NCBI GenBank assembly: GCA_026417625.1
Contig: JAOACW010000002.1
Span: forward strand, 203,237-256,474
Direction of reading: 5' to 3'
DNA from: Syntrophales bacterium
GTDB taxonomy: Bacteria; Desulfobacterota; Syntrophia; Syntrophales; UBA8958
Length of the DNA: 53,238 nt
Made by a program: the position numbers and the translations under genes. The notes below the pieces were generated by a model. It saw only the letters and a list, made by a program, of their open reading frames with translations, made no database searches and was not told the DNA's origin. Shown piece by piece: positions 9,405 to 17,939 of the stretch (position 1 is its first letter; every line of letters begins with the position of its first letter).

Positions 9405-10310
9405 ATGAATGGCAAAGAACCTACTTTATCTGTAATCACGCCGTCTCTAAATCATGGGAAGTACCTTCGAGCGACAGTGGAATCTATATTAGCCCAATCT
9501 TATGACGATTGGGAACATATTGTTGTGGATGGTGGATCAACAGATGAGACGATTGAGATCCTGGAATCGTACAGCCATATTAAGTGGATTTCCGAAAGAG
9601 AAACGGACAAGAACACCATTCTTGAAGCGTACAGAAAGGCCTTCTCCATGTCAAGGGGAAGGTATATCATTCAGTGCTGTGTAACCGATGGTTTTCTTCA
9701 CAAAGATTGGTTTAGGATGTGTGTGGATATTCTAGAGAGTGATCGGGATATTTCTTTGGTTTGGGGGCTTCCCCAGCGTATGTCATCCGATGGAGTTTTG
9801 GGGAAAATTCATTTTGTGGAGTTTTTGGACAGAAGCCCACCTCAAAAAAAGGAGTTTCTTCCCTTTTGGTTGGCTACAGGTTTTGGTTTTCCCGAAGGTA
9901 ATTATTGTGTCAGACGCAGAGTGTTTGATATCTGTTTTCCAAAGCGGGGGGATGAGGATCTACTCAGTTTAAATCCTGCTTGGGGGTTTAACTACAGGTT
10001 TAATACGCTGGGATATCTCCCTTTTTTTCTTCCGATTATCGCAAATTACGGTAGGAAACATGAAAATCAGCGGGGCATCCGTCTTTATGATTTGGAGGAT
10101 AAAGCCTCGCATTTTTACAGAAGACTTGTTGATAAATACAAAATTTTGCTGTTAAAAGGTAGTGTTACACATTATTTTAGAGATGGGGATTCTGAGATTA
10201 TAGATGAGGTCCGTCGAAGAGACTTGGGTGAGATAATGGTTAAGGTGTATAAATACAAAGTAAAACAAAAGATAAGGAAAAGGTTTCAGGAGTTTTTGGA
10301 GAAACTATAA
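9405..10310 (+). CDS. family 2 glycosyltransferase
   Basis: A cytoplasmic or membrane-associated GT-A glycosyltransferase that would move a sugar from a nucleotide donor to a growing surface glycan. The N-terminal ~100 residues carry the family signature: LSVITPSLNHGKYLRATVESILAQSYDDWEHIVVDGGSTDETIEIL, with the DGGSTD nucleotide-binding stretch. The C-terminal ~100 residues are basic (KVKQKIRKRF) with no membrane helix. In place of a clean DxD there is VTDG. The start at 9405 has only a weak ribosome site. It is the first gene of an eight-gene operon of sugar-nucleotide enzymes; donor and acceptor cannot be read from sequence. Confidence 0.85.
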   Translation: MNGKEPTLSVITPSLNHGKYLRATVESILAQSYDDWEHIVVDGGSTDETIEILESYSHIKWISERETDKNTILEAYRKAFSMSRGRYIIQCCVTDGFLHKDWFRMCVDILESDRDISLVWGLPQRMSSDGVLGKIHFVEFLDRSPPQKKEFLPFWLATGFGFPEGNYCVRRRVFDICFPKRGDEDLLSLNPAWGFNYRFNTLGYLPFFLPIIANYGRKHENQRGIRLYDLEDKASHFYRRLVDKYKILLLKGSVTHYFRDGDSEIIDEVRRRDLGEIMVKVYKYKVKQKIRKRFQEFLEKL

Positions 10311-10331: not shown

Positions 10332-11270
10332 ATGTCGATGAAAGTTCTTGTAACCGGCGGTGCGGGTTATGTTGGATCTATTTTATGTGAGCATTTGTTG
10401 AGAGAAGGTTTTAAGGTCACGGTACTGGATAATCTTATGTACAGGCAGACCTCTCTGTTCCATCTCTGTGCAAACAGAAATTTCGAATTTGTTCATGGTG
10501 ATGTTAGAGATGAAACACTAATGAGAAAGTTAGTTGGTCAGGTTGACGTATTGATTCCTCTTGCCGCTATTGTGGGAGCACCTGCATGTGATCGAGATCC
10601 GTGGCTGGCAAAGTCGGTGAATTATGAGTCCATATGTATGTTGAATAGAATTCGCAGTAATAGTCAGCTGGTCATATTTCCTACGACAAACAGTGGTTAC
10701 GGAACAAAATCGGGTGACATCTACTGCACTGAGGAGACTCCTTTAGAGCCGATTACTCTGTACGGGCAGACTAAGGTTGAAGCCGAAAAAGTACTACTAG
10801 ATAGTGAAAATACTATAACTTTGCGGCTTGCAACGGTTTTTGGAATGTCTCCAAGGTTGAGAATAGATCTTCTTGTAAATCACTTTGTTTATGCTGCAGT
10901 TACAGAGGGTTACATCGTGATTTTTGAGAAAGATTTCAAAAGAAATTATGTCCATGTTCGGGATGTTGCCGATTGCTTCATTCACTGTATAAAGAATGCT
11001 GAGAAAATGGTTGGTAAGCCTTACAATGTAGGATTGGATGAAGCAAATCTCTCCAAGGAAGAATTGGCTTTAAGAGTTAAGAAACATATACCCAATTTTT
11101 ATATTCACTTTTCAGATGTGGGAAGTGATCCAGATAAAAGAAACTACATTGTATCAAACCAAAGGTTGAGGGATGCCGGTTTTGAAGCGAAGATTACGAT
11201 AGATGATGGCATTAGGGAGCTCATCGTTGGTTATAAAATGCTGGTCAGAGGAAAGTTCAGGAATGTGTAA
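10332..11270 (+). CDS. NAD-dependent nucleotide-sugar epimerase/dehydratase (extended SDR)
   Basis: A soluble Rossmann-fold enzyme acting on a nucleotide sugar. The 312-residue protein opens with the NAD(P)-binding motif VLVTGGAGYVGSILCEHLL. It has the catalytic YxxxK (LYGQTKVEAEK) with a TTNSGYG segment supplying the Ser/Thr, and the LRLATVFG and NYVHVRDVADCF stretches usual in extended SDRs. GGGAG lies about nine bases before the ATG. Its position before a heptose-1-phosphate nucleotidyltransferase and a heptose kinase suggests a sugar-nucleotide substrate, possibly GDP-heptose. Which reaction (4-epimerase, 4,6-dehydratase or 4-keto reductase) is not decided by the sequence. Confidence 0.88.
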   Translation: MSMKVLVTGGAGYVGSILCEHLLREGFKVTVLDNLMYRQTSLFHLCANRNFEFVHGDVRDETLMRKLVGQVDVLIPLAAIVGAPACDRDPWLAKSVNYESICMLNRIRSNSQLVIFPTTNSGYGTKSGDIYCTEETPLEPITLYGQTKVEAEKVLLDSENTITLRLATVFGMSPRLRIDLLVNHFVYAAVTEGYIVIFEKDFKRNYVHVRDVADCFIHCIKNAEKMVGKPYNVGLDEANLSKEELALRVKKHIPNFYIHFSDVGSDPDKRNYIVSNQRLRDAGFEAKITIDDGIRELIVGYKMLVRGKFRNV

Positions 11271-11303: not shown

Positions 11304-12041
11304 TTGGAGAATAAAAAACGTTTTTTAGAAGATGATGTTCAAGCTTTCATTCTTGCAGGCGGGATGGGAACTCGTTTGAAGTCGGTGATTTCTGATCGGC
11401 AGAAAGTCATTTCCGAAGTAAAAGGCCGACCTTTTATTACATACATTTTCGATCTTCTACTCAGAAATGGAATTGAAGAAGTGGTAATATTGGTAGGCTG
11501 GAAGGGAGAAGAGGTCAAATCTCTGATAGGGGACAAGTACGGTGATCTTAAAATATCGTATTCAATAGAGGAAAGACCTCTTGGGACAGCTGGAGCTCTT
11601 AAGAATGCTGAATCCTTTATCAAAACGGAAGAAATACTTGTGCTGAACGGAGATTCCTACTGTCATTTTGATTTTCGTGAATTATTGATTTTTCACAGGA
11701 TGAAGAATTCTCAAGTTACTGTAGTTTCAATAGAGGTAGAAGATACTTCTCGGTATGGAACTTTATATTTAGATGAAACCTCGCGTATTGTTAAATTTGC
11801 GGAAAAGGAGGGTGAATCAAGGAGGGGGTTAATTAACGCGGGGGTGTACCTTATGTCGCGGAGTGTTGTTGAGTCCATTCCTTTCAATCAAAACTGCTCT
11901 CTGGAGAAGGATGTGTTTCCTTATTTAACTGGAATATGTGGGTACATAGTTCAAGGACCTTTCATAGATATAGGAACACCTGAGGATTACAAGAGGGCTT
12001 CAGAGTTTTTTGATTCTTTTGCTAAAATCTCATATGGGTGA
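11304..12041 (+). CDS. hddC: sugar-phosphate nucleotidyltransferase, probably heptose-1-phosphate guanylyltransferase-like (HddC)
   Basis: Joins a sugar 1-phosphate to a nucleoside triphosphate to make the activated sugar. The 245-residue protein begins with the pyrophosphorylase signature AFILAGGMGTRLKSVISDRQK, then KVISEVKGRPFITYIF, the SIEERPLGTAGAL loop and the metal/sugar-binding LNGDSYCHFD. It ends with GPFIDIGTPEDYKRA, common to HddC and mannose-1-phosphate guanylyltransferases. The start is a TTG, the only codon that fits, with AGGAGGG ten bases before it. The next gene is a heptose-type GHMP kinase, so D-glycero-D-manno-heptose 1-phosphate is the likely substrate; this specificity is inference from context. 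Confidence 0.75.
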   Translation: MENKKRFLEDDVQAFILAGGMGTRLKSVISDRQKVISEVKGRPFITYIFDLLLRNGIEEVVILVGWKGEEVKSLIGDKYGDLKISYSIEERPLGTAGALKNAESFIKTEEILVLNGDSYCHFDFRELLIFHRMKNSQVTVVSIEVEDTSRYGTLYLDETSRIVKFAEKEGESRRGLINAGVYLMSRSVVESIPFNQNCSLEKDVFPYLTGICGYIVQGPFIDIGTPEDYKRASEFFDSFAKISYG

Positions 12042-12083: not shown

Positions 12084-13157
12084 ATGGTGATTGTTAGAAC
12101 CCCTTTTAGAATATCTTTCTTTGGCGGCGGGACGGATTATCCAGCGTGGTATGAGAGAAACGGTGGGGCTGTTTTAGCTGCCGCAATCAACAAATACTGT
12201 TATTTAACGTGTCGATACCTTCCCCCATTTTTTGAACATCGTATTCGTGTTGTGTATTCTAAAATAGAGAACTGTTCGGTCATAGATGAGATTCAACACC
12301 CTGCTGTAAGGGAAATCCTCCGGTATATGGATATACAGAGGGGGATTGAGATTCATCATGATGGCGACCTCCCGGCGAGGAGTGGTATCGGATCCAGCTC
12401 CTCATTTACAGTGGGATTGTTACACGCTCTTTATGCCTTAAAGGGAAGAATGGTAGATAAGGAAACATTGGCCAGGGAGAGTATTCACATAGAACAGAAT
12501 ATCCTGAAAGAAACTGTGGGTTCTCAAGATCAGATTATGGCCGCATATGGTGGGTTTAATCACATAACTTTTAAGGCTAACGAGTTCAATGTAACACCAA
12601 TTACCATTTCGAAAGACAGAATATCGCACCTGCAGCTTCACCTTATGTTGTTCTACACAGGTATTAAAAGGACGGCCGCAAAAATTGCGGAAACGTACGT
12701 TAATAAGCTCGGTAGTGTGGAGAATCACTTGATACGCATGTCTGAGTTTGTGGAGGAGGGTTTGCGTATCCTTAATAGTTCTAGCGATATAAAGGATTTC
12801 GGAAGACTTCTTCACGAGGCGTGGATGGTAAAAAAAGATTTGAGTGATAGAGTCACCAATCACTATGTGGATGAATTGTACGAAACGGCTCTCTCCGCTG
12901 GTGCCATTGGAGGAAAGTTACTTGGCGCTGGTGGGGGAGGATTTATGCTTCTTTTTGTTCCACCTGAGCAGCGGCCAGTTGTTCGGGAGCGCCTTAAGAA
13001 GCTTGTTTACGTTCCTTTTTCCTTTGATTATAGGGGCAGTCAGGTGATCTTTAATGATCCGCAGGAAGACTACACGGAACTCGACCTAGAAAGACGTAGC
13101 AAAAAGGTGGAGGTTTTTGAAGAACGCGAGTTCATTGAGAATGGGGAAAAGATATGA
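12084..13157 (+). CDS. hddA: GHMP-family sugar kinase, D-glycero-D-manno-heptose 7-phosphate kinase-like (HddA)
   Basis: Would phosphorylate the anomeric carbon of a heptose 7-phosphate with ATP, supplying substrate for the nucleotidyltransferase encoded upstream. The 357-residue protein has the HddA-type start VRTPFRISFFGGGTDYPAW, the GHMP ATP loop DLPARSGIGSSSSFTVGLLHAL (near residue 100), KETVGSQDQIMAAYGGFN, and the C-terminal motif AGAIGGKLLGAGGGGFMLLF. These are the standard motifs of this kinase branch (also fucose kinase-like). The isomerase GmhA and phosphatase GmhB of the same pathway are not in the window. The ribosome site is weak. The TGA stop overlaps the next start (ATGA). Confidence 0.8.
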   Translation: MVIVRTPFRISFFGGGTDYPAWYERNGGAVLAAAINKYCYLTCRYLPPFFEHRIRVVYSKIENCSVIDEIQHPAVREILRYMDIQRGIEIHHDGDLPARSGIGSSSSFTVGLLHALYALKGRMVDKETLARESIHIEQNILKETVGSQDQIMAAYGGFNHITFKANEFNVTPITISKDRISHLQLHLMLFYTGIKRTAAKIAETYVNKLGSVENHLIRMSEFVEEGLRILNSSSDIKDFGRLLHEAWMVKKDLSDRVTNHYVDELYETALSAGAIGGKLLGAGGGGFMLLFVPPEQRPVVRERLKKLVYVPFSFDYRGSQVIFNDPQEDYTELDLERRSKKVEVFEEREFIENGEKI

Positions 13158-14128
13158 TCGCGTATTCAAGAAAGTTTCTTCGAAGGCTATTTTATGAGAT
13201 GCTTCGCATTCGCCTTGTGCAACTTAAAATTGAATCACTTTACCACCTGGACGAAATGAAGACACCGGTCCATCTCTGTATAGGTCAGGAAGCAGTAGCA
13301 GTTGGTGTATGTGCAGCCCTAAGGAGAGATGACTATATTTCGAGCAATCATCGAGGGCATGGTCATTATCTGGCGAAAGGTGGAGACTTGAAAGCCCTCA
13401 TTGCCGAGCTTTACTGCAGAGAGACAGGGTGCTCAAAGGGGCGTGGGGGGTCAATGCATCTCGTTGACACATCTTGTGGTCATATGGGTAGCTCTTCAAT
13501 TGTCGGTGGAGGGATACCTATCGGTACTGGTTTGGCTTTGGCTTCTGTTATGAAAGGTGAGGACAAGGTAAGTGTTGTCTTCTTTGGTGATGGTGCAGCT
13601 GATGAGGGGGTTTTATATGAGAGCGTGAATTTTGCAGTGTTGAAACGGCTACCAGTTATCTATATATATGAGAACAACGAGTATTCTGTATGTTCTCATG
13701 TTTCTCAACGTCAGTGGGGTGATGTGGTTTTTCATCGCACACCCGCTAACAAAATGATGACCTGCATCATTGATGGGAATGATGTTTTAGCTGTTTATGA
13801 AGCAACCTTCAAGGCGGTGAGGAGGGGACGGAAAGGATTGGGGCCATCGTTAATCGAGTGTAGAACTTACCGTTTACGTGGTCATGCCGGTGCTGGTTCA
13901 GATGAGAAGCTGGGTTACAGAACTGCGGGAGAAATTAGAAAATGGGAAAAGAGATGTCCGATAAAGAGATTTAAAGCAAAACTCCTAAAAGAAAAGATTA
14001 TTTCCCGAGCTGATATTGAGATTATGGAGAAAAAAATCAGTGAGGAAATTGAAGAAGCGTTTAGCTTTGCTCGAGAGAGTCCGTTACCACGGGAAGAGGA
14101 TCTAGAATTGTATCTCTTCAAGGAGTGA
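13154..14128 (+). CDS. thiamine-pyrophosphate enzyme, 2-oxoacid dehydrogenase E1 alpha-like subunit
   Basis: Half of a two-subunit TPP enzyme. The 324-residue protein carries TGCSKGRGGSMHLVD, a GSSSIVGGGIPIGTGLALA segment, and the TPP-binding motif GDGAADEG followed about 28 residues on by ENNEYSV. This is the E1 alpha layout of pyruvate/acetoin/branched-chain dehydrogenases. No lipoyl E2 or dihydrolipoamide dehydrogenase E3 gene is near, and the gene overlaps the heptose kinase and is part of a sugar operon. An ordinary dehydrogenase role is therefore unlikely; acyl transfer from a decarboxylated 2-keto acid to a keto-sugar is a better guess, by analogy with the E1-like pair (AviB1/AviB2, from memory) implicated in a branched sugar of avilamycin. 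Confidence 0.85.
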   Translation: MIAYSRKFLRRLFYEMLRIRLVQLKIESLYHLDEMKTPVHLCIGQEAVAVGVCAALRRDDYISSNHRGHGHYLAKGGDLKALIAELYCRETGCSKGRGGSMHLVDTSCGHMGSSSIVGGGIPIGTGLALASVMKGEDKVSVVFFGDGAADEGVLYESVNFAVLKRLPVIYIYENNEYSVCSHVSQRQWGDVVFHRTPANKMMTCIIDGNDVLAVYEATFKAVRRGRKGLGPSLIECRTYRLRGHAGAGSDEKLGYRTAGEIRKWEKRCPIKRFKAKLLKEKIISRADIEIMEKKISEEIEEAFSFARESPLPREEDLELYLFKE

Positions 14129-14134
14129 TAGGTT

Positions 14135-15175
14135 ATGCCATGGACCCGCATTGCTGCAGAGCGTAATGAGCCATTTAGCGACACTATGAGAGGTGAGCGA
14201 CGTATTTCCTATGTGGAAGCTATTCGTGAAGCACTGGATCAAGCTCTTACCATAGATCCGCGTGTTTTTGTTATGGGACAGGGAGTTGATGATCCTGCAG
14301 GCATGTTTGGTACAACATTGAATCTACATAAAAAGCACGGAAAGAATCGCGTTTTCGATACACCACTCGCTGAAAATGCACTCACTGGTATTGCCATAGG
14401 AGCGGCTATTGGGGGTATGCGTCCTGTCTATTTCCATAACAGGCCAGATTTTCTTTTCCTTGCTATGGATCAATTGGTGAATCACGCGTCGAAGTGGTAT
14501 TACATGTTTGGAGGTCGAGTCTGTGTACCGTTAGTTGTATGGTCATGTATTGGAAGAGGATGGGGATCGGGAGCTCAACATTCCCAAGCAATTCAGGGTC
14601 TGTTTATGCATATTCCGGGCATAAAGCTAATAATGCCAAGTACCTGTTACGATGCAAAAGGGTTGATGCTTGCTGCGATAGCTGATGATAATCCTGTTTT
14701 GATTATTGAGCATAGGTACAATTTTCGACACATCGGTGTAGTTCCAGAGGAACCCTATCTTGTTCCCATAGGGCGAGGTGTCGTTCGGCGGAAAGGAAAT
14801 GATGTAACAGTGGTTGCTGTTTCATACATGGTGACAGAGGCTTATTATGCAGCTCAGAAGCTTGCGGAGGAGGGAGTGGAGATTGAAATTATCGACCCTC
14901 GTACCCTTCGTCCTCTAGATGAGGAACTTATAATTTCCTCGGTGGCGAAAACACGTAGGGTTGTAATTGCTGATACAGGATGGAAAACAGGGGGGGTAAC
15001 AGCTGAAATTGCGGCATTAATTGCAGAAAAGGCCTTCCTTTTTTTAAAAGCACCGGTGCGTAGGGTTGCTTGTCCTGATGTGCCAACTCCTGCGGGTTAT
15101 ACACTGGAGAAGGCATTTTATAGAGGAGCAGAAGATATTGTTGCTGCAGTAAAGGAAGTTATGAGCTATAGTTAG
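14135..15175 (+). CDS. thiamine-pyrophosphate enzyme, 2-oxoacid dehydrogenase E1 beta-like subunit
   Basis: Partner of the alpha subunit encoded six bases upstream. The 346-residue protein has the transketolase-like pyrimidine-binding domain: YVEAIREALDQAL, the PLAENALTGIAIGAAIGGMRPV stretch whose glutamate activates TPP, and GSGAQHSQAIQGLFMHIPG with the active-site histidine. The C-terminal transketolase domain follows (VTVVAVSYMV, EIIDPRTLRPLDEE). All the usual E1 beta catalytic positions look present, so the alpha/beta pair is probably active. The sugar-biosynthetic context and lack of an E2 suggest the hydroxyethyl-TPP intermediate is passed to a sugar or other small acceptor. Substrate not determined. 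Confidence 0.86.
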   Translation: MPWTRIAAERNEPFSDTMRGERRISYVEAIREALDQALTIDPRVFVMGQGVDDPAGMFGTTLNLHKKHGKNRVFDTPLAENALTGIAIGAAIGGMRPVYFHNRPDFLFLAMDQLVNHASKWYYMFGGRVCVPLVVWSCIGRGWGSGAQHSQAIQGLFMHIPGIKLIMPSTCYDAKGLMLAAIADDNPVLIIEHRYNFRHIGVVPEEPYLVPIGRGVVRRKGNDVTVVAVSYMVTEAYYAAQKLAEEGVEIEIIDPRTLRPLDEELIISSVAKTRRVVIADTGWKTGGVTAEIAALIAEKAFLFLKAPVRRVACPDVPTPAGYTLEKAFYRGAEDIVAAVKEVMSYS

Positions 15176-15213: not shown

Positions 15214-16431
15214 ATGGTTAAGGAGATGTTGAAAGTACCTTTTGGAACCATATCAATTACTGATTCGGCAAAGGATTTGATCCAGGAAATCATTGCTGCA
15301 AGAAGGATATCCAGTGGAAGATACGTGCGCTTGTTTGAAGATAAGTTTGCAGAACTTTTAGGAGTTAAAAGTTCCGTTGCTGTGAGCAGCGGTACCGATG
15401 CTGATATCCTGGCCTTGGCGGTGTTTCATGATTTTGGTGCAGAGAGGGGCGATGAAGTTATAGTGCCAGCTTTATCTTTTGTTGCTACTGGAAATGCTGT
15501 AGTTCACGCGGGGTACAAACCTGTTTTTGTAGATGTAAGCAGGGATACACTCAATATCGATCCTTTACAGATAGAAGATGCGATTACGGAGAGGACAAAG
15601 ATAATTATGCCTGTGCACTTGATGGGTAAACCTGCAGACATGGATGAGATAAATCGTATTGCAGGAAAGTATGGACTTTTCGTCGTGGAGGATGCAGCAG
15701 AAGCGCACGGGGCATTTTACAAAGGGAAGCCTGTTGGAACGCTAGGAGATATGGGAGCTTTTAGTCTTTACATTGCACACATAATAACCACGGGTGAAGG
15801 AGGTATTGTAACGACCGATAATGAGGAATACGCAGAGATATTACGGTCACTTAGATCGCACGGAAGATCGTGTAAATGTAAGGAATGTGCTATAAACGTC
15901 ACTTCTTCTTTCTGTAAGAAGCGGTTTCAAGGTGAAGACGGCGAAGATCGCCGGTTTTTCTTTGAAAGGATTGGATATTCATGCAAAATGAACGAGCTTG
16001 AAGCTGCAATTGGAATTGGTTCGTTGGCTATGTATCACGAGATAGTAAACAGGAGAAGAGAAAACCTTTTGTATTTCATCTCGAAGTTTGATCAGTTTAA
16101 TCCTTACTTATCAACCATCAGGGAGGATCCGTGGGAGAGTATTGGACCTCACGCGATTCCCATTGTTGTGCAGGAAGATGCCTCTTTCACGAGAGCACAA
16201 TTGGCCCGTTATCTCGAGGAAAGAGGAATTGAAACTAGGACCCTATTTGCTTCTATGCCCACTCAGTGTCCTGGTTTTGCGTATCTTGGCTACTCACTGG
16301 GGCAATTTCCCAATGCGGAATATATAGGTAGGAATGGAATTCACATAGGAGTTCACCAGGATCTGACTATAGAACATATGGATTATGTAATAGAGGTGAT
16401 TAGAGAGTTTTTAGAAAAGTACCAGGATTAG
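15214..16431 (+). CDS. RfbH/ColD-like PLP-fold sugar 3-dehydratase (His in place of the PLP lysine)
   Basis: The fold is that of DegT/DnrJ/EryC1 sugar aminotransferases, but the residue that normally anchors PLP is His189 (AFSLYIAHIITTGEGG). This is the hallmark of C-3 dehydratases such as RfbH (E1 of ascarylose/3,6-dideoxyhexose synthesis) and ColD. These use PLP/PMP to remove the 3-hydroxyl of a 4-keto sugar nucleotide. The RfbH-type cysteine loop is present too: C220, C222, C225 and C234 before KKRF, ending IGYSCKMNELEAAIG. C220 and C222 sit exactly where two [2Fe-2S] ligands of RfbH are relative to the His. The remaining upstream ligand position is Ala162 instead of Cys. No reductase partner (RfbI type) is nearby. 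Clear ribosome site (GAGAGGG). Sure of the subclass, unsure of substrate. Confidence 0.85.
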   Translation: MVKEMLKVPFGTISITDSAKDLIQEIIAARRISSGRYVRLFEDKFAELLGVKSSVAVSSGTDADILALAVFHDFGAERGDEVIVPALSFVATGNAVVHAGYKPVFVDVSRDTLNIDPLQIEDAITERTKIIMPVHLMGKPADMDEINRIAGKYGLFVVEDAAEAHGAFYKGKPVGTLGDMGAFSLYIAHIITTGEGGIVTTDNEEYAEILRSLRSHGRSCKCKECAINVTSSFCKKRFQGEDGEDRRFFFERIGYSCKMNELEAAIGIGSLAMYHEIVNRRRENLLYFISKFDQFNPYLSTIREDPWESIGPHAIPIVVQEDASFTRAQLARYLEERGIETRTLFASMPTQCPGFAYLGYSLGQFPNAEYIGRNGIHIGVHQDLTIEHMDYVIEVIREFLEKYQD

Positions 16432-16439
16432 GGTTTTCT

Positions 16440-17939
16440 ATGAGAAGGCACGATATTGACGTAGTTCTTGTAAATCCTGGCAATCGCTCAGAGGCCTATC
16501 AAGAATTGGGAGATACTTTGGCCGCCATTGAACCCCCTGTCTGGGCGGGGTTGATAGCCTCTTTTATAAGAGCCAAAGGTTTTTCTGTGGCAATTGTGGA
16601 TGCGAATGCGGAAGGTTTGACGCCATTGGAGATCTCCCGAGCTATATATGACGCAAATCCTTTGCTGGTTGTTGTGGTTGTTTATGGTCACCATCCATCA
16701 GCCTCAACACAGAATATGCCTAGTGTAAGGAGGATATGCAGGGCGATAAGGGAAACTGATCCTACAATAAGGATAGCGCTTCTAGGTGGTCACGTAGCTG
16801 CTCTGCCGGAAAGGACATTGGAGGAAGAAGAAACTGATTATGTATGTGATGGTGAAGGTCTATATACCATCTTGGATCTTTTGACCTTATTTCATGAAGA
16901 CGGTCATAATGTGGAAAAGGTCCGGGGGCTGTGGTACCGGAAGGATGGGAAGATTTGTAGAACGGAAGCGGCTCCCCTTGTTATGGACCTAGATGGGGAA
17001 ATGCCAGGGGTTGCCTGGGATCTTTTACCTATGAAAAGATACAGGGCGCATAACTGGCATTGCTTTGGAAATATTTCTCGGCAGCCTTACGGCTCGTTGT
17101 ATACCACCCTGGGATGTCCCTTCAACTGTCATTTCTGTTGTATTCAGGCACCTTTCAGAAGTGGGGAGCGTGTCTTGGGCATGAAGAAAAATAGCTATCG
17201 ACTCTGGAGACCTGAGTCGGTGGTTTCTCAAATTGAGACATTGGTGAGTCTTTACAATGTGCGCAATATAAAATTTGCTGATGAGCTATTCGTACTGAAC
17301 AGGAGGCATGTTGAAGGCATATGTGATTTGCTCATAGAGAGAGGTTTCGATTTGAACATATGGGCCTATGCTCGTGTCGATACACTGAACAAAGCTATTT
17401 TGGAGAAGTTGAGGATGGCAGGAGTGAGATGGCTGGCTTTGGGTATTGAATCGGCGAGCGAGAGGGTACGCAATGATTCTCAAAAAGGGGTTGATAATTC
17501 TAAAATTTATAAAGCGGTAAACGAAATTAGGGGGCAGGATATAAACATCATCGGTAACTACATATTCGGACTCCCGGAAGATGATCTAGAGACGATGAAT
17601 GAGACACTGGATATGGCTTTGTCTTTGAACTGCGAATTTGCCAACTTCTACTGTGCTATGGCTTATCCAGGATCTAAACTGTACGAACGAGCCCTTAAGA
17701 ATGGCTGGCCTTTGCCTGATTCCTGGGGTGGATATGCTCAACATTCCTATGACACCGTACCTTTACCGACCAAATACTTACCACCTCGGGAGGTACTCCG
17801 TTTCAGGGATGAAGCGTTCCACCGTTACTTTACGGACAGTGGTTACCTTGCGATGATAGAAAGGAAATTTGGCATCAGCACTGTCAGAGAAATAGAAGAG
17901 ATGACTAAAAGACGTTTGAAGAGGCGATTGTTGGAGTGA
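16440..17939 (+). CDS. B12-binding-domain radical SAM protein of a sugar cluster
   Basis: The 499-residue protein has an N-terminal cobalamin-binding-like domain (DVVLVNPGNR, then IRIALLGGHVAALPERTL and YVCDGEG) and a radical SAM core with C226, C230 and C233 (TLGCPFNCHFCCIQ) binding the [4Fe-4S] cluster. AYARVDTL, LALGIESASERVRN and GNYIFGLPEDDLETMNETL are the usual later strands of class B enzymes. The family includes methyltransferases and rearrangement enzymes. As the last gene of the operon it probably alters the sugar or an attached group. No ordinary DxHxxG B12 ligand motif is obvious, so cobalamin use is not certain. The reaction is unknown. Confidence 0.82.
   Translation: MRRHDIDVVLVNPGNRSEAYQELGDTLAAIEPPVWAGLIASFIRAKGFSVAIVDANAEGLTPLEISRAIYDANPLLVVVVVYGHHPSASTQNMPSVRRICRAIRETDPTIRIALLGGHVAALPERTLEEEETDYVCDGEGLYTILDLLTLFHEDGHNVEKVRGLWYRKDGKICRTEAAPLVMDLDGEMPGVAWDLLPMKRYRAHNWHCFGNISRQPYGSLYTTLGCPFNCHFCCIQAPFRSGERVLGMKKNSYRLWRPESVVSQIETLVSLYNVRNIKFADELFVLNRRHVEGICDLLIERGFDLNIWAYARVDTLNKAILEKLRMAGVRWLALGIESASERVRNDSQKGVDNSKIYKAVNEIRGQDINIIGNYIFGLPEDDLETMNETLDMALSLNCEFANFYCAMAYPGSKLYERALKNGWPLPDSWGGYAQHSYDTVPLPTKYLPPREVLRFRDEAFHRYFTDSGYLAMIERKFGISTVREIEEMTKRRLKRRLLE

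Follow-up and report, generated by a model that had tools for sequence, protein, structure and literature searches.

A conserved four-cysteine loop in a putative lineage of His-type nucleotide-sugar 3-dehydratases linked to ThDP enzyme genes

Introduction

When a dehydratase of the RfbH/E1 kind carries alanine where one of its four cluster ligands is expected, does it bind an altered iron-sulfur cluster, work without one, or stand between two known types? This question is raised by the gene for protein P0001 in the window, that is, the whole stretch of 53,238 nucleotides that was analysed. To our knowledge, very few enzymes have been characterised that perform biological 3-deoxygenation by PMP radical chemistry. 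The cluster of E1 is unusual in that the cofactor strand supplies one of its ligands; in line with the alignment, these ligands are taken to be C193, C251, C253 and C261, and the RfbH/E1 motif is presumably C-X57-C-X1-C-X7-C, with C193 beside the PLP-binding Asp. E1 and SpnQ bind [2Fe-2S] via four cysteines, and ColD binds none (PMC8987622). A lineage keeping the His but moving a ligand into the loop would allow the part played by this odd ligand in electron transfer to be addressed directly.

Sequence sets and tree

The ortholog set comprised 51 distinct sequences, including P0001 itself, one from a viral-contig collection, 42 from a genome collection (L014-L055) and seven retrieved by comparing full-length sequences within the phylum of the window; L072, apparently the same locus as L020, was left out of the count. 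The viral-contig relative is 59% identical to P0001 and the genome-collection orthologs 51-74%. They are distributed over Thermodesulfobacteriota, Nitrospirota, Omnitrophota, Elusimicrobiota, Planctomycetota, Chloroflexota, Myxococcota, a Woesearchaeote and others, single taxon names being uncertain as many of the genomes are metagenome-assembled. For comparison, 24 RfbH/E1 sequences were used (23 loci and 3BCX). A maximum-likelihood tree was built from 65 sequences, with the columns of the loop, A162 and H189 omitted.

A His-type member of the DegT fold

The features of P0001 on which the argument turns are the following.

15214-16431, plus strand: P0001, 405 aa, putative His-type DegT-fold nucleotide-sugar 3-dehydratase (open reading frame, PF01041 match, solved relatives, AlphaFold model)
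15697-15699, plus strand: Ala162, where RfbH/E1 enzymes have ligand C193 (alignment, orthologs)
15778-15780, plus strand: His189, at the PLP-lysine position (pairs with E1 H220; orthologs)
15871-15915, plus strand: loop C220-x-C222-x2-C225-x8-C234, proposed full [2Fe-2S] ligand set (conservation, E1 alignment)

By both profile (341 bits) and fold, P0001 belongs to the DegT/DnrJ/EryC1/StrS family (PF01041), and its best solved relatives include E1 (3BCX) and ColD (2GMS). The AlphaFold model, based on 63 sequences, reached a mean pLDDT of 95.3 and was matched by Foldseek and VIA to sugar aminotransferases, E1 and ColD. The VIA Z values of the model (51.0 for GDP-perosamine synthase, 49.8 for E1 and 49.1 for ColD) are too close to decide function. 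The ligand loop is the least confident core part of the model (pLDDT blocks 77-83), and the loop of an RfbH control model was also lower (73-84).

The class of the enzyme is indicated by its catalytic residue. H189 aligns with H220 of E1 and H188 of ColD and is present in 51/51 orthologs, in agreement with the earlier note, which had read His189, replacing the PLP lysine, as a mark of a dehydratase and not an aminotransferase. A PLP lysine elsewhere in P0001 was considered and rejected, because H189 takes the position of the catalytic His in the alignment and the tree places the lineage apart from the Lys-type sequences. Conserved residues thus support the assignment of P0001 as a PMP-dependent, His-type nucleotide-sugar 3-dehydratase rather than an aminotransferase.

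Exchange of one cluster ligand

The cysteines of P0001 are found at positions 220, 222, 225, 234, 257 and 352. Relative to H189, C220 lies at +31, C222 at +33, C225 at +36 and C234 at +45, with A162 at -27, so that all residue positions given in the earlier note were correct. In the alignment with E1 (3BCX; CDP-6-deoxy-L-threo-D-glycero-4-hexulose-3-dehydrase), with which P0001 shares the fold and the His for the PLP Lys, A162 pairs with C193, C220 with C251, C222 with C253 and C234 with C261, confirming that C220 and C222 occupy two RfbH/E1 ligand positions. Three of the four E1 ligand positions are therefore in register in P0001, and C193 alone is gone. A C-x-K-R-F string is common to P0001 (at C234) and E1 (at C261). 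The displacement of C234 by four residues, noted earlier, was found to be a real four-residue insertion preceding C234 but not a simple shift, since the cysteine itself aligns with C261. In contrast to RfbH/E1, P0001 carries Ala for C193, an invariant C225 and this insertion, and it scores 282.5 bits against the NCBIfam RfbH model, below the curated cut-off of 423.

Conservation of these residues was examined across the ortholog set. C220, C222 and C225 are invariant in 51/51 sequences, like H189, and C234 in 50/50 of those whose sequence reaches it, while 50 sequences have Ala at position 162, one has Ser and none has Cys; for C220 and C222 the conservation is partly by construction in the genome-collection set, because one of the two search patterns used there (HGR[SA]CKC) contained both. 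Neither pattern included C225, C234, A162 or H189, and the same residues recur in the seven orthologs that were retrieved purely by full-length similarity. Across these sequences, the residue set appears conserved far beyond chance.

The RfbH/E1 set displays the reverse arrangement. The C193 equivalent is Cys in 24/24 sequences, and the only Cys lying between loop positions two and four is C257 of E1 itself, which is not conserved. In this sample, the swap between C193 and C225 is exclusive between P0001 orthologs and RfbH/E1. In the alignment to RfbH, ColD and E1, no other Cys was placed at the Ala162 position and no PLP lysine was revealed elsewhere.

The description of P0001 as lacking one ligand is therefore not borne out, as four cysteines are present and co-conserved. 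Similarly, C225 is present as the additional loop cysteine that had been pointed out, but it is not a stray one, being found in every ortholog. The fourth ligand appears to have left the PLP-Asp strand for a place in the loop, giving C-x1-C-x2-C-x8-C, and, with four cysteines still available, the loop alone could ligate a cluster. The idea of an altered cluster ligation gains support from the invariant loop and the Ala/Ser at the C193 position, and C225, invariant as it is, is the likely stand-in for C193, as had been suggested. The loop site could hold zinc instead.

Two other cysteines were considered as replacement ligands and rejected, as neither is invariant, unlike the four loop cysteines: C352 is Cys in 40/44 orthologs and C257 in 16/44. 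As a separate observation, C352 (PTQC; 16267-16269) is absent from E1 and ColD and possibly has an active-site role.

Comparison with ColD

An alternative is that P0001 is a cluster-free 3-dehydratase like ColD (GDP-4-keto-6-deoxy-D-mannose-3-dehydratase; 2GMS), in which H189 and PMP would act in a redox-neutral manner, glutamate would regenerate PMP, and the loop cysteines would be structural or bind Zn. P0001 resembles ColD in its fold, in the His for Lys and in a probable GDP-sugar context, and ColD needs no cluster (PMC8987622). However, ColD has neither a cluster nor loop cysteines and occupies a separate tree branch on the RfbH side, whereas the four loop cysteines of P0001 are invariant across phyla and three of them align with the RfbH ligands in a CxC...C-x-KRF arrangement. 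The earlier suggestion that P0001 works without a cluster, as ColD does, is accordingly disfavoured by the invariant loop, and we regard this alternative as unlikely, though it keeps some weight.

A ColD-like archaeal sequence (L056, 9311-10663) was observed to keep EDCCEA at the C193 position; its loop, RNCRNEEFKNRY, is reduced, perhaps the vestige of a cluster that was lost.

Gene neighbourhood in the window

In the window, P0001 is preceded by a glycosyltransferase, an SDR, HddC-like and HddA-like genes and an E1alpha/E1beta pair, and is followed by a B12 radical-SAM gene.

9405-10310, plus strand: family 2 glycosyltransferase, head of the run (Pfam Glycos_transf_2)
10332-11270, plus strand: NAD-dependent epimerase/dehydratase, SDR (Pfam Epimerase)
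11304-12041, plus strand: nucleotidyltransferase, nearest HddC, heptose-1-phosphate guanylyltransferase (NCBIfam 171.7 bits, cut-off 300)
12084-13157, plus strand: GHMP kinase, nearest HddA, heptose-7-phosphate 1-kinase (NCBIfam 135.6 bits, cut-off 600)
13154-14128, plus strand: E1alpha-like ThDP subunit of alphaKADH2 type, with GDG...NN ThDP motif (Pfam E1_dh, 238 bits)
14135-15175, plus strand: E1beta-like ThDP subunit (Pfam Transket_pyr and Transketolase_C)
16440-17939, plus strand: B12-binding radical SAM protein, HpnJ/BchE/AprD4-like (Pfam Radical_SAM and B12-binding; NCBIfam below cut-off)

The sugar and nucleotide are uncertain, because the HddA and HddC scores lie well under the curated cut-offs. 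Elsewhere in the same genome there are two clear GDP-mannose 4,6-dehydratases and a SIS-domain gene, which may encode a heptose isomerase. P0001 has no dedicated reductase (E3) gene beside it; two ferredoxin-reductase-like (PF00175) loci elsewhere in the genome are possible electron-donor partners. A lipoyl E2 acyltransferase (PF00198) gave no match in this 97.8% complete genome, with 10/14 control genomes positive, and the lack of a detectable E2 makes it unlikely that the neighbouring E1 pair serves a pyruvate dehydrogenase complex. The B12 radical-SAM protein scores below every curated cut-off and may act on a branched sugar.

Linkage to ThDP enzymes across orthologs

A ThDP pair, counting incomplete ones cut off by a contig end, lies near 42/51 ortholog loci, being strongly E1-type in 15, divergent E1-type in five and a split transketolase in 22. 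E1-type and transketolase-type pairs never occur together at one ortholog locus, and most of the nine loci without a pair are cut short. Among loci with at least 5 kb of flank on both sides, a pair was found at 30/32 ortholog loci and 0/13 RfbH loci (Fisher p = 1.4e-9, a value that treats related genomes as independent, which the loci are not fully). In the RfbH neighbourhoods taken as a control, a ThDP pair occurred in 0/20 loci, scanned with the same ThDP profiles, which were not built to detect the YerE-type enzyme. Unlike the P0001 locus with its HddA, HddC and ThDP neighbours, RfbH loci show, of these, only a weaker nucleotidyltransferase match. Genes near the 51 orthologs also include a kinase (42-44), a nucleotidyltransferase (37), radical-SAM (28), SDR (28) and GDP-fucose-synthase-like genes (26). 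The exclusive ligand swap combined with a constant ThDP partner is the strongest new point of this analysis.

Beside the dehydratase, E1alpha/beta and split-transketolase pairs replace one another across phyla (L014-L055, L103-L109), and a third, divergent E1-like pair was seen at L017, L020, L104, L108 and L109. The contig of the ortholog L013/L071 (IMGVR_UViG_3300020171_002008), filed as viral, carries split transketolase and kinase genes; its visible genes resemble an ordinary bacterial sugar island, the neighbours of the ortholog being sugar genes.

Proposed pathway

Relevant precedents come from sugar-branching enzymes. Of three ThDP groups with a described or proposed role in branching keto sugars, two are the alphaKADH2 enzymes and the split transketolases, whose described or proposed reaction is the attachment of C2 branches; branching split transketolases are known from Streptomycetes only and are untested in vitro (PMC12247030). 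AviB1/AviB2 and Pau11/Pau12 are proposed acetyl-branching pairs (PMC4753412). Together with KbDH (alphaKADH2) and the miharamycin/amipurimycin split transketolases, these pairs resemble the window in placing a two-gene ThDP enzyme beside deoxysugar genes, and alphaKADH2 carboligases, like the E1 pair of the window, have no E2 (PMC12247030; PMC4753412). The window differs from these antibiotic systems in that the clusters are of surface-polysaccharide type, come mostly from uncultured bacteria and contain a heptose-type activation pair. The yersiniose pathway (RfbH/E1 and YerE) likewise combines His-type 3-deoxygenation with subsequent ThDP branching (PMC12247030; PMC4753412), YerE acting on the E1-pathway product CDP-3,6-dideoxy-4-keto-glucose (PMC12247030). 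Yersiniose, however, involves a CDP-sugar and a single YerE-type decarboxylase, whereas P0001 loci contain other ThDP families and another dehydratase lineage.

On this basis, we consider it fairly probable, with appreciable room for doubt, that P0001 is an E1-type reductive 3-dehydratase with a four-cysteine loop cluster, and that its product then receives a branch from the ThDP pair. PMP would condense with a 4-keto sugar, most likely GDP-linked; H189, which could form no Schiff base with PLP, would act as the base taking a proton from the cofactor; and the C3-OH would leave to give a glucoseen intermediate. These steps (PMP condensation, base and loss of C3-OH) belong to the established E1 mechanism (PMC8987622). 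The glucoseen would be reduced stepwise by single electrons via a [2Fe-2S] cluster held wholly by the loop, with C225 doing the job of RfbH/E1 C193, and the product would be a 3-deoxy-4-keto sugar, probably GDP-linked and perhaps heptose-derived. The two-subunit ThDP enzyme (E1alpha/beta here, split transketolase elsewhere) would add a two-carbon branch to this product, after which the SDR and B12 radical-SAM proteins may modify the branched sugar before its transfer to a surface polysaccharide.

The dehydratase could also be a His-type Fe-S enzyme as proposed while its product is not a substrate of the ThDP pair, which is merely part of a common polysaccharide island. Sugar islands do shuffle genes, and no ThDP pair was found at nine loci, even if most are cut short; but two mutually replacing ThDP types, present at nearly all well-flanked ortholog loci in many gene orders and at none of the RfbH loci, make such a coincidence quite improbable. 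The linked ThDP genes suggest that a large set of branched surface sugars is still unexplored, and they supply a concrete acceptor on which split transketolases and E1-type carboligases from beyond Streptomyces could be tried.

A third His-type lineage

The tree, which did not include SpnQ and in which ColD is a long branch, separated Lys-type from His-type enzymes with support of 99/95. Within the His-type part, the P0001 family and L009/L010 (99/91) are set against RfbH and ColD (100/99), ColD and L056 falling with RfbH, apart from the P0001 lineage. The P0001 family is a third, separate His-type lineage, sister to RfbH and ColD. A separate, supported lineage does not support the earlier view of P0001 as an intermediate between the two known types. 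That P0001 is a degenerate RfbH minus one ligand, on the way to ColD, is hardly credible: the Ala at the C193 position would fit, but Ala or Ser accompanies C225 in all orthologs and is no one-off, and the lineage lies outside RfbH and ColD. By its residues and its place in the tree, P0001 reads as a widespread and conserved variant of a known enzyme kind, neither a broken nor a transitional RfbH.

Whether this undescribed third lineage, with a single-loop motif C-x1-C-x2-C-x6-9-C for [2Fe-2S], marks a widespread pathway for alphaKADH2 or split-transketolase two-carbon branching of 3-deoxy GDP-sugars on surface polysaccharides seems to us evenly balanced. No earlier description of such an enzyme was found in the literature searched, which is weak evidence as subscription papers lie largely outside the search; within the same limit, none was found for GDP-heptose with transketolase and radical SAM, or for DegT with transketolase.

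The distant pair L009/L010 (35-37% identical) has a loop C-x-C-x2-C-x6-C and no C193 equivalent; the four-cysteine loop of L009, found also in L110, is RLCDCRICRRPAGKCPH. No more enzymes of this type were found in 297 genomes at 1e-75, a sample without any genome known to match. L009/L010 lie in a cassette of GMD, Fcl-like and dehydratase genes resembling colitose genes, which points to GDP-sugar 3-deoxygenation and, by analogy, is the best hint that the lineage may use GDP-4-keto-6-deoxy sugars. A distant His-type relative with a four-cysteine loop was observed in such a GMD, Fcl-like and dehydratase cassette at L110 (8070-9359) and L111 (1420-2709), an arrangement like the colitose pathway in which an enzyme possibly of Fe-S type takes the place of ColD.
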